Program-made: the position numbers and the translations under genes
The notes under the pieces: generated by a model
Told to the model about the DNA's origin: nothing
The model's database searches: none
What the model saw: only the letters and a program-made list of their open reading frames with translations
NCBI GenBank assembly: GCA_015523545.1
Contig: WAKB01000015.1
Coordinates: forward strand, 1 to 40,717
DNA from: Candidatus Geothermarchaeota archaeon
Lineage (GTDB): Archaea; Thermoproteota; Nitrososphaeria; Geothermarchaeales; JDFR-13
Reading direction: 5' to 3'
Length of the DNA: 40,717 nt
Shown: positions 12,770 through 40,717 of the stretch, one piece after another
Layout of the letters: every line of letters starts with the position of its first letter
How positions within the stretch are numbered: the stretch's first letter is position 1

Positions 12770-13639
12770 CTATCTCCTCCTTAGTAGGTGGGAGGCGTCG
12801 CAGTAGACATCTTTATCGTCCAGGTGTTCCAACCCCTCTCTACAGGTTATGAAGGTCATGCCGTATCTATGGGCTAGGCTCCTCACGGTCCTGAGTATCT
12901 CCTCCCTATAGGTCGTTGAGGCGTATCTATATCCACTTATCCTCGGGCCTCTATAGAGCTCTCTATACACCTCTTGGAACCAGGGTATTGTCTTGATGAT
13001 CCTCCTTAGGTTGTCTGGCTTGGCCTTATAGACAGAGGAGACTATGTGTCCAGCCCCCTTCTCAGAGGCACTCCTTACCAGCTCCTCCAAGTCTCTTGCC
13101 CTATCCGTGACCCCCGGTATTATTGGGTCTATCCTCACAGCGACCGGTATACCTGCATCTGCTAGTCTGGACACTGTCTCAAGCCTGTCTCTCGGGCTGG
13201 GTGCCCCTGGCTCCACAGCCCTCGCCACCTCCGCCCTGTGGGTCGTTATCGTTATGGATACCGCGGCATCCATCTCTGCGAGTATGTCTATGTCCCTCTC
13301 CACTAGTGTGGACTTGGTGGTTATGAGTACTGGGACTCCATACTCCCTGAGTATCCTTAGGGCCTGTCTTGTATAGCCATATATCTTCTCGAGGGGTTGG
13401 TATGGATCTGTGCTGAAGGATATCGCTACTGGTAGGCTGTCCTCTAGGTTGGCGACCTCCTTCTCAAGCCTCTTGAGGAAGTCTTTCTTGGGCCTTGGGT
13501 TGAAGCCCCTGGGTATGTAGCTTGTTATGTAGCAGTATCTACACCCGTATTGGCATCCGGTGTATGGGTTTAGGCTGTACTTGGGTGGGCATGTGCATAG
13601 GCTGCTCCTCCAGGGGTCGAATGGCTGGATAAGCCTCAT
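12770..13639 (-). CDS. Radical SAM protein, SplB-like (COG1533)
   Basis: A 289-residue radical SAM enzyme. The cluster-binding motif is C-x3-C-x2-C in GCQYGCRYCYIT, preceded by an extra CTCPPKYSLNPYTG block typical of the COG1533 group. Further family blocks are ISFSTDPYQPLE, VLITTKSTLVERD, SITITTHR and VAVRIDPIIPGVTD. It reductively cleaves SAM to start a radical reaction; the substrate of archaeal COG1533 members is unknown, and spore photoproduct lyase is only a distant relative. It overlaps the upstream dehydrogenase gene by 4 bp, so the two are coupled. Additional Cys near the C-terminus (TCREG, YCDASH) could hold a second cofactor. Confidence 0.85.
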   Translation of the reverse strand: MRLIQPFDPWRSSLCTCPPKYSLNPYTGCQYGCRYCYITSYIPRGFNPRPKKDFLKRLEKEVANLEDSLPVAISFSTDPYQPLEKIYGYTRQALRILREYGVPVLITTKSTLVERDIDILAEMDAAVSITITTHRAEVARAVEPGAPSPRDRLETVSRLADAGIPVAVRIDPIIPGVTDRARDLEELVRSASEKGAGHIVSSVYKAKPDNLRRIIKTIPWFQEVYRELYRGPRISGYRYASTTYREEILRTVRSLAHRYGMTFITCREGLEHLDDKDVYCDASHLLRRR

Positions 13640-38583: not shown

Positions 38584-38653
38584 TGTTACTTAAAGCAATC
38601 ATAATTATTTGGGATTTTTATCCTCCGCGTTTTAATATTAAACGATAACCTGA

Positions 38654-38671
38654 AACTAATTATAATTAGTT
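38654..38671. promoter_or_regulatory. Perfect 18-bp palindrome, candidate operator
   Basis: The half-site aactaatta is followed directly by its reverse complement. A TATA-like 12-bp palindrome tttaatattaaa (38631-38642) lies about 25 bp upstream of its centre, so the palindrome would sit over a transcription start. It precedes the small-peptide/ABC locus by about 100 bp. Confidence 0.5.
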
Positions 38672-38743
38672 GAGTACTATTTTGTGATACCCATGTCAAA
38701 ATACAGCCTTTCAATATATACATCTCTGACTAAAGTAAATGTC

Positions 38744-38752
38744 ACATATTAT
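38744..38752 (+). promoter_or_regulatory. Possible TATA box for the Cys-rich peptide gene
   Basis: The sequence acatattat is centred 29-32 bp upstream of the GTG codons at 38777 and 38780, the spacing of a leaderless archaeal gene. No ribosome binding site is present there, which fits a leaderless start. Confidence 0.35.
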
Positions 38753-38779
38753 GTTGGTAAAAGATATTGATTTTAAGTG

Positions 38780-38908
38780 GTGATTACCACGAAGTATAAT
38801 CCACCCGAAATAACACCAATGGACTTACTTTTAGCGCCATTATGCCTCTGTAATTGCAACTGTGGACTGCTGTCAGGTTCGGGAGCTGGAGGAGGGAGTG
38901 CTAAGTAG
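38780..38908 (+). CDS. Candidate Cys-rich precursor peptide (42 residues), RiPP-like
   Basis: A short ORF bounded on the 5' side by an in-frame TAA (38774-38776) and starting with GTG 38777, GTG 38780 or, later, ATG 38819. The 42-residue reading has an N-terminal leader-like part (ITTKYNPPEITPMDLLLAP), a core CLCNCNCG with four alternate Cys (residues 22-28), and a Gly/Ser/Ala-rich tail ending in a Lys (GSGAGGGSAK). Leader, Cys core and small-residue tail are the layout of precursors for modified peptides. The ABC exporter ATPase starts 16 bases after its stop and a truncated third gene follows. No database comparison is possible here. It could be a chance ORF, but the sequence is far from random. 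Confidence 0.6.
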   Translation: MITTKYNPPEITPMDLLLAPLCLCNCNCGLLSGSGAGGGSAK

Positions 38909-38924
38909 CCGCTGGTGGCTAAGC

Positions 38925-39833
38925 GTGCACATAAGAGTCATCAGCATCACAAAGACATACGGTGCTAGTGTCAGAGCCGTAGAATCCCTATCCTTTTTTA
39001 TAAACTCAGGAGAATCTGTAGCGCTAATAGGACCCAATGGGGCAGGAAAAACGACAACTATACATATCATTCTTGGGCTATTGAAGCCTGATGAAGGAGA
39101 AGTTTATATAGACGGAGTCAACATGACGGATGAAAAGGAATCATCGGAAATACGTTCTAGAATAGGTTTTGCACCACAGAACATCGCGTTGGATTTTTTC
39201 CTTACTGTTGAGGATAACATCGAACTGTACCTGAAGTTAAATGGACTATCAAGAGCGAAGAGGAGAGAAAGAACAAAAAGGATACTTGAGTTAATGGGTT
39301 TATATGAATATAGGAATAGGAGGGTGGAGACGCTTTCAGGAGGATTAGCCAGACGTGTTCACATAGCGAGGGCACTGGCTCTCGACCCTGAATTGATTAT
39401 TTTGGATGAGCCTACTGTTGGATTGGACCCTGTTTCAAGGAGACTTTTCTGGGAAGCTCTCAAGGGATACATTAAGGAGTCGGGTGCAACACTCCTGTGG
39501 AGTAGCCATTATTTGGAGGAGATCGAAAGAAATGCCGATCGAGTGATTCTACTAAATAGAGGTAGAAAGTTGATGGACGCTCCTCCTGGAGAGATTGTAT
39601 CCAAGTTTTCGAGACCTGTACTCGAGCTAGAAATACCTAATGAAGAGGTTTTAAAGTCACTTACATCGAGATTCGGCGGTAACTATGTAAATGGAAGGCT
39701 CATCATTGACGATGTCGACTGGGATGATCTGCCCAAGGTTATAGCAAGCCTGAGTAAGCTTGGTGCTGAGGTACGGCTGTTGAGGTGGGGTAGTAAGTCA
39801 CTTGAGGAGGTGTATCTCGAGGTGATGTCATGA
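38925..39833 (+). CDS. ABC transporter ATP-binding protein (ABC-2 export type)
   Basis: GTG 38925 (MHIRVISITKTYG) is used because the family starts with such a strand; the open frame further upstream (to 38862) is antiphase to the small peptide gene and not conserved. The 302-residue product has Walker A GPNGAGKTTTIH, the Q loop FAPQN, the signature LSGGLARRVHIARALA, Walker B LIILDEPTVGLDP, the switch His in WSSHYLEE, and a C-terminal domain of about 80 residues (PVLELEIPNEEV). It would power export of a peptide, lipid or drug with the permease encoded downstream. Codon use is clearly more AT-rich than in the rest of the window. Confidence 0.9.
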   Translation: MHIRVISITKTYGASVRAVESLSFFINSGESVALIGPNGAGKTTTIHIILGLLKPDEGEVYIDGVNMTDEKESSEIRSRIGFAPQNIALDFFLTVEDNIELYLKLNGLSRAKRRERTKRILELMGLYEYRNRRVETLSGGLARRVHIARALALDPELIILDEPTVGLDPVSRRLFWEALKGYIKESGATLLWSSHYLEEIERNADRVILLNRGRKLMDAPPGEIVSKFSRPVLELEIPNEEVLKSLTSRFGGNYVNGRLIIDDVDWDDLPKVIASLSKLGAEVRLLRWGSKSLEEVYLEVMS

Positions 39834-40582
39834 GTATTGTTATAACCCTTATCGAGAGGGAGTTCAAAATAATGTTTAGGAGTAAGTTACTTATGCTTCT
39901 CATGATAGCTCAGCCAGTAATTTTGATATTCTTGTTCGTCCTGTCTATGGGTAATGTAGTCGGTGAGATAACTTATCGAGGTATTACTGTTAGTTATGTG
40001 GAGTTTATGGTTCCTAGCGTGGTTATTCTTACCCTTATATTTGTTACTATGATGGTGAGCCAATCCGTTTTCAACGAGAAGTTTTCCAACATGCTGATAA
40101 TCCTGTTATCCACGAGGATGACAGCTAGGGACTACATCGTAAGTAAACTGATAACCAACACTTTTATATCATTGACACAGGCGATGCTTATGCTAACATC
40201 TTATCTATTGATTATAGGAAGAACCAACATAATATCAATTGTATATGCTCTTCCACCAATAATAATTGCATCACTGACACTTTCGGGGATATATCTCTCT
40301 CTTCTAGGGTATCTCAAAACAATTTCAGCTTTCTCGAGTGCCGTAAACATACTTACATTGATAATGATATATTCTGCACCTCTTTTCTACCCTTTGGAGG
40401 CGATGCCTTTCCCTCTAAATTTTGCTAGTAATGTTAATCCTTTAACATATATTGTTGAATCAACAAGGATAAGTTATTTATTAAAGAGTTTTGATGTATC
40501 AATATGGGTATCCTCGATAATTTGTATAATCTTCATATTACTATCTATTCATACAATGAAAAATATGCTTAAGGAGGTTTGA
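39830..40582 (+). CDS. ABC-2 type permease
   Basis: A 250-residue protein with six membrane segments and the ABC-2 layout: an amphipathic start LIEREFKIMFRSKLLMLLMIAQP, then FMVPSVVILTLIFVTMMVSQSVFNEK, the coupling region LIILLSTRMTARDYIVSKLI, and a last pair around PLFYPLEAMPFPLNFASNVNPLTYIVE. It overlaps the ATPase gene by 4 bp (ATGA) and pairs with it as a half exporter. Its codons use many A/T-ending triplets, unlike genes before 38.5 kb. Confidence 0.9.
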   Translation: MSIVITLIEREFKIMFRSKLLMLLMIAQPVILIFLFVLSMGNVVGEITYRGITVSYVEFMVPSVVILTLIFVTMMVSQSVFNEKFSNMLIILLSTRMTARDYIVSKLITNTFISLTQAMLMLTSYLLIIGRTNIISIVYALPPIIIASLTLSGIYLSLLGYLKTISAFSSAVNILTLIMIYSAPLFYPLEAMPFPLNFASNVNPLTYIVESTRISYLLKSFDVSIWVSSIICIIFILLSIHTMKNMLKEV

Positions 40583-40584
40583 AA

Positions 40585-40717
40585 ATGATAGAAAGAAGAA
40601 TGATAATTCAGGATACTCCACTTGAAAAATTAAGGGAAAACTTGAAAAGATTAATATGCATCAAATTTAAAAATCTCTATGTGCTTTTTGATCCAGAGAC
40701 AGTCAGTTGGATCCCTA
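40585..40717 (+). CDS. N-terminal fragment of a further gene in the ABC/peptide locus
   Basis: ATG 40585 has a strong GGAGGT six bases upstream and starts three bases after the permease stop. The 44 codons inside the window read MIERRMIIQDTPLEKLRENL followed by a segment ending in YVLFDPETVSWIP. The YVLFDPETVSWIP part looks like the strand pair of a PqqD/RRE-type leader-binding domain that often starts radical SAM peptide maturases, but 44 residues are too few for a firm call. The rest lies beyond the window. Confidence 0.6.
   Translation, partial: MIERRMIIQDTPLEKLRENLKRLICIKFKNLYVLFDPETVSWIP

Follow-up and report, generated by a model that had tools for sequence, protein, structure and literature searches.

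A probable StsABC-like sactipeptide gene island in archaea of the class Nitrososphaeria

The locus at the right end of the DNA analysed here (the window, which is the entire contig G000:C15 of 40,717 bases) is probably a laterally acquired RiPP island of five genes of the StsA/StsB/StsC sactipeptide kind, the product of which would contain thioether bonds. A RiPP-like locus had been proposed in the initial annotation of this DNA. This reading holds, as the precursor is conserved in a sister genome together with a radical SAM/SPASM maturase and a PqqD-type RRE protein. The reference system is StsABC of Streptomyces sparsogenes (Actinomycetota), with the NCBIfam families NF045558 for StsA and NF045574 for StsB; StsC is a discrete RRE.

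Gene layout at the end of the contig

At the right end of the window, surE is followed by an ORF of 43 codons, an ABC ATPase, an ABC-2 permease and 44 codons of a gene that is cut by the contig end. The window thus ends within the third gene of the locus, counting from the exporter. The features are:

38584 to 40717, no strand: low-GC gene island; its left edge lies just past surE and its right side is cut by the contig end
38777 to 38908, plus strand: precursor peptide ORF of 43 codons, conserved in the sister genome and of the same plan as the Streptantibioticus cattleyicolor peptide beside an StsB-family gene
38789 to 38791, plus strand: codon 5 of the precursor, ACG here and ATG in the sister genome, four bases 3' of a GGTGAT Shine-Dalgarno-like site
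38925 to 39833, plus strand: ABC exporter ATPase (PF00005, E 1.9e-35)
39830 to 40582, plus strand: ABC-2 type exporter permease of 250 aa (PF01061, E 1.3e-17), overlapping the ATPase gene
40585 to 40717, plus strand: first 44 codons of the radical SAM/SPASM maturase, with 100% identity over 44 aa to the N-terminus in the sister genome

All elements that had been noted before are present: the small cysteine-rich ORF, its in-frame stop, the two-gene ABC-2 exporter and a third gene behind a ribosome binding site. The ATPase frame is open from position 38862, inside the small ORF, and the likelier start is GTG 38925 behind GGTGG. With this start a gap of 16 bases follows the precursor stop, in agreement with the spacing given earlier. 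The ATPase is DrrA-like in the NCBIfam comparison, yet scores under the DrrA cut-off. The last ORF begins at ATG 40585 behind GGAGG and its frame is cut at 40717, so the adjoining gene is indeed truncated.

A second radical SAM domain (PF04055) is found in the window at 13091-13570 on the minus strand, in an open frame of 319 aa. It is apparently unrelated to the RiPP locus.

The complete locus in a sister genome

The sister MAG G003 (JALWXN010000004.1, Nitrososphaeria archaeon isolate T2_maxbin2_scaf2bin.399) belongs to the same genus as the window genome. Its locus is complete and comprises the precursor, the ATPase, the permease, a radical SAM/SPASM protein of 464 aa and a PqqD protein of 90 aa. 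The 44 residues of the truncated ORF in the window are 100% identical to the N-terminus of this radical SAM protein. A look for a maturase beyond position 40717 had been suggested. In the sister genome the radical SAM/SPASM protein is found there, followed by the PqqD/RRE protein; therefore, the maturase exists. Reading further on the window's own contig is ruled out, since the contig stops at this position. Another contig of the window genome (C6) carries at its end the final portion of the radical SAM gene together with the PqqD frame. Accordingly, the contig break corresponds to about 1.15 kb of missing sequence within the radical SAM gene.

The radical SAM protein of G003 contains the domains PF04055 and PF13186 (SPASM), both above the cut-off. 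In the alignment, the CX3CX2C cluster motif (C105-C109-C112) is conserved and the set of SPASM cysteines is complete, with C323, C341, C383, C386, C392, C396 and C415 all conserved, which identifies the protein as a member of the radical SAM/SPASM group. The PqqD protein scores 38.4 bits with PF05402 (cut-off 23.4). This score and the fold match to the TbiB1-leader complex place it among the RRE proteins as a predicted leader binder. Furthermore, a small precursor with leader and core is conserved beside the maturase, the arrangement that defines RiPP loci in general.

Among the genomes of the class (400) and the phylum (398) that were searched, two sets drawn separately and partly overlapping, the orthologous maturase is confined to the window genome and G003. 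No match was found in viral contigs scanned with the radical SAM sequence as a single protein. A later, alignment-based scan served solely as an alignment source for folding.

The precursor peptide

The small ORF encodes MVITTKYNPPEITPMDLLLAPLCLCNCNCGLLSGSGAGGGSAK. It consists of 43 codons from GTG 38777 or 42 codons from GTG 38780, and a TAA is located in frame directly upstream. The leader carries the motif YNPP (YxxP type) at residues 7-10. Cysteines are found at residues 23, 25, 27 and 29 and form the sequence CLCNCNCG, followed by the Gly/Ser-type tail LLSGSGAGGGSAK. The best-placed start is codon 5 (GGTGAT, four bases, codon), which is ATG in G003. In the window this codon is ACG, which makes the start used by the window strain uncertain. 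The ORF of 42 residues described earlier stands when counted from GTG 38780; the refined frame has 43 codons from GTG 38777, with codon 5 as the best-placed start.

The small ORF is more than a chance occurrence. It is 95% identical in G003, at the same genomic place and beside homologous ABC genes, and in a simulation of 27,644 small ORFs with matched composition the pattern CxCxCxC did not occur once. If the numbering of StsA is applied (W at -15), the start of the core would lie near L22 and its sequence would be LCLCNCNCGLLSGSGAGGGSAK; for this putative core in its unmodified form, a monoisotopic mass of 1983.86 was computed.

With the StsA and sacti_RiPP_CxC HMMs the precursor reaches 13-15 bits, which is noise level, since unrelated genomes reach 21 bits on the StsA profile. 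This is below the curated cut-off of 42 bits for the StsA family (NF045558), to which the peptide is thus not assigned. The match to NF045559 (sacti_RiPP_CxC) is weak, covers the C-terminal part (E 0.04-0.08) and is far from the cut-off of 75 bits. The initial annotation had stated that the core matches no class that can be named. A closest known kind can now be given, namely the StsA/StsB/StsC sactipeptide type.

Precursor matches in other members of the class (E 0.03-0.24) were rejected for their noise-level scores. The StsA-profile matches in the phylum were likewise rejected as noise, and the inspected loci have no precursor beside a maturase. A scan of the genome contigs with the precursor returned the sister MAG and one chance match, a leucyl-tRNA synthetase, and nothing more. 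A short ORF with TSCSCSC is present in G473 (L187:1504-1566) with a noise-level StsA-profile score (neighbourhood viewed to 1.5 kb), and a comparable match is present in G564, which belongs to that genus as well.

Family assignment of the radical SAM protein

The top NCBIfam family of the archaeal radical SAM protein is StsB with 173.8 bits; the runner-up (112 bits) is 61 bits behind. The score is far under the curated cut-off of NF045574 (625 bits), which precludes a formal assignment of the protein to StsB. On the StsB model, no other radical SAM protein in the 400 genomes of the class scores above 137 bits. For two peptide-type radical SAM proteins of the phylum, StsB comes sixth in one case and fifteenth in the other among the families. 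In a tree containing MftC, PqqE, NirJ, archaeal radical SAM proteins and the StsB of S. cattleyicolor, the protein forms a clade with this StsB (support 94/94, with a long-branch warning). The structure model has a mean pLDDT of 75 and is weak in the N-terminal domain. Its top fold match is CteB, and the fold alignment spans nearly the whole chain, N-terminal region included.

Loci with a radical SAM protein and ABC genes in four other Thermoproteota genomes (G412, G447, G656 and G679) were rejected as relatives. They belong to another RiPP type, their peptides differ and they contain no orthologues. Two of these genomes, G412 and G447, are related and share a conserved small peptide (L056:8411-8563, minus strand, and L062:6311-6469, plus strand, respectively) that contains YEAPKV close to its N-terminus and finishes with GHAHLKYVADADYDTSP. 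It has no Pfam or NCBIfam match. Next to it are an ABC ATPase, a permease and a radical SAM protein that is extended at its N-terminus by a PqqD-like part, and together they form a different, unnamed archaeal RiPP-like cluster. In G656, a peptide of 39 aa, MNANRREWVAPKIMSGTPEPSKKCELCFSCYSKFGPVPT (L059:6662-6781, plus strand), is located directly 5' of a radical SAM protein of 465 aa, and an ABC ATPase and permease follow further downstream. This is possibly another archaeal RiPP locus.

Leader recognition

The model of the PqqD protein has a pLDDT of 91. Its top fold match is TbiB1 bound to a lasso leader, and TbiB1 is also its sole sequence match in the PDB. Discrete PqqD-type RREs, StsC included, recognise leaders with W/Y/LxxP/L/I motifs (mSystems 2025; PMC12710340). 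YxxP is the motif of lasso RREs, and altering the WxxP of StsA abolishes binding by StsC, which is assigned to a sactipeptide pathway of Actinomycetota (PMC12710340).

A bacterial counterpart

The top-scoring bacterial match of the radical SAM protein among plasmids is located on pSCAT of Streptantibioticus cattleyicolor. The S. cattleyicolor protein passes the StsB cut-off (738 versus 625 bits) and is 27% identical to the archaeal one. It is accompanied by an ORF of 36 residues, MVSSWIKPDITSAEPQMLPPACSCGCGSGGGGGAGS, as well as by a PqqD-like frame, an ABC ATPase and a permease, so that each of the five archaeal genes has a counterpart within a single S. cattleyicolor cluster. The archaeal ATPase and permease are 31% and 28% identical to this pair, respectively, and the two PqqD sequences show weak pairwise similarity (E 0.001). 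A CxCxC precursor, an StsB-like radical SAM protein, a discrete PqqD-type RRE and an ABC exporter, the components of an StsABC-type locus, are thus found together both in G003 and in S. cattleyicolor.

The small S. cattleyicolor peptide contains WIKPDIT and, further on, CSCGCGSGGGGGAGS. In the alignment, the archaeal PEITS..P.C.C.CG..GS.G corresponds to PDITS..P.C.C.CG..GS.G. The score of the precursor pair was reached by 3 of 5000 half-wise shuffles, and that of the leader alone, suggestive at most, in 112 of 5000. The link to the StsA type rests on the gene set and not on the peptide profile. The cluster on pSCAT (L072:4726-8428) is itself a complete StsABC-type cluster with an ABC pair, in a database record without gene annotation.

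Island status and the copy in the window strain

The part of the island in the window has a GC content of 0.386, versus 0.535 in the remaining window. The whole island of G003 (L015:5319-8949) spans 3.6 kb, starts where surE ends and closes with the PqqD gene; its GC content is 0.373, versus 0.54-0.56 in both flanks. In two congeners (G001 and G002) and several members of the family the site is empty, and surE directly adjoins a geranylgeranyl-reductase-like gene. Where the cassette sequence is available from both the window genome and G003, it is 96-100% identical, compared with mostly 86-95% for the flanks. For the cassette genes that were compared, synonymous divergence amounts to about 0.01-0.09; for surE it is 0.33. 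This pattern fits an insertion of the cassette in this lineage and an exchange between both species after their split; the cassette has apparently moved recently between archaeal species. A search for terminal repeats of the island revealed none that is convincing and none that names a mobile element. The window contains no tRNA, and the vicinity of the locus contains no Rfam family.

Barring assembly errors, the cluster copy of the window strain may be damaged. The best-placed start at codon 5 of the precursor is ACG instead of ATG. At the end of contig C6 (L076, first 350 bases of the reverse complement), an A-run in the PqqD gene is one base longer than in the sister genome, which shifts the frame. 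It is unlikely, albeit compatible with the preferred explanation of the cluster, that the island was functional once and is now inactive and decaying in this strain. Both defects are found in a metagenome assembly, one of them at a contig end, where errors are possible. Furthermore, GTG starts remain in the precursor, and the ATPase, the permease and the start of the radical SAM gene are intact. Thus, the copy is either decaying, or it is started at GTG 38777/38780 and the PqqD shift is an assembly error.

Proposed mechanism and alternative explanations

In the preferred explanation, the PqqD protein would hold the precursor via the YNPP motif of the leader and present it to the maturase. The maturase would use SAM to abstract alpha-hydrogens from acceptor residues in the C-terminal tail. 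The cysteines of CLCNCNCG could then be joined to these acceptors by up to four sulfur-to-alpha-carbon thioethers. StsB is said, in work of Precord et al. from 2023, to form sactionine bonds. The ABC pair probably exports the product and perhaps also provides self-protection. The island encodes no protease, and the leader would be removed by one encoded elsewhere. The product may act in microbial competition or signalling. It is conceivable, though doubtful, that the archaeal maturase, about 27% identical to StsB, threads C-x-C-x-C-x-C into a heat-stable peptide with four thioethers in a new ring pattern, which would then be an archaeal bacteriocin from a mobile island.

Sequence similarity of a SPASM maturase does not fix its chemistry. 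The island could therefore encode another kind of radical SAM-modified RiPP: a ranthipeptide, with cysteine linked to a beta or gamma carbon, or a peptide with epimerisation or carbon-carbon links. PapB, a ranthipeptide family, is among the next-best families (105 bits; the SCIFF maturase model gives 77 bits), and CteB, the best match of the structure model, forms thioethers in a peptide of SCIFF type. Against this, StsB is ahead by 61 bits, both the plan of the precursor and the complete set of genes agree with the StsA type, and the Gly/Ala/Ser tail offers few gamma-carbon side chains as acceptors. Such other chemistry is thus rather unlikely.

Thioether formation and methanobactin-like metal binding had both been considered conceivable for this core. 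The present data favour the former and provide no supporting gene for the latter. CxCxCxC is a plausible soft-metal ligand, but the operon in the sister genome contains no multinuclear iron oxygenase, YcaO or importer, its maturase is a radical SAM/SPASM protein with an RRE and its transporter is of the ABC-2 exporter type. In particular, no MbnB/MbnC or other MNIO maturase is found beside the precursor in the sister-genome island. A methanobactin-like peptide or other metallophore is therefore very improbable. The peptide could also be the precursor of a redox cofactor, as the set of a peptide, PqqD and a SPASM radical SAM protein is common to the PQQ and mycofactocin pathways. The PqqE and mycofactocin models, however, give 105 and 88 bits versus 174 bits for StsB, and MftC and PqqE are placed elsewhere in the tree. 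The peptide has no Glu/Tyr or Val-Tyr core, there are no further enzymes of cofactor type and an exporter is present, which leaves a cofactor pathway with scarcely any likelihood.

Comparison with known systems

Thousands of archaeal RiPP clusters have been predicted, sactipeptide and ranthipeptide types included, and antiSMASH surveys already list archaeal clusters of both types; lanthipeptides alone are reported as validated (PMC12144867). No tested archaeal example of radical SAM chemistry forming sulfur bridges in peptides was found. Archaeal sactipeptide predictions as such are already known. New here is a divergent archaeal StsABC-like cluster with an alternating core of four cysteines.

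The CxC sactipeptides of NF045559 have a similar Cys-x-Cys core, but the profile covers 87 positions versus 43 residues in the archaeal peptide. The CteB-type maturases (SCIFF, ranthipeptides) provide the best fold match, although the archaeal precursor is unlike SCIFF and the RRE is also a separate protein. TbiB1 and other lasso RRE proteins share the YxxP leader motif and the fold, whereas the archaeal island contains neither a lasso cyclase nor a leader peptidase.

With StsABC the cluster shares the short precursor with a W/YxxP leader, Cys-x-Cys core and Gly/Ser tail, the SPASM radical SAM protein with a homologous N-terminal domain and the free-standing PqqD-type RRE; in the S. cattleyicolor case, an ABC ATPase and permease are present as well. 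It differs in its archaeal host and in its radical SAM protein, which is 27% identical and under the family cut-off. The archaeal peptide has four alternating cysteines and a longer tail, compared with three cysteines in the bacterial one. The gene order is A-ABC-ABC-B-C in the archaeal cluster and A-B-C-ABC-ABC in the bacterial one. As the cluster is compact, complete in the sister genome, equipped with a clear precursor and matched part for part by a bacterial cluster, archaeal radical SAM peptide chemistry becomes directly testable with three small genes.
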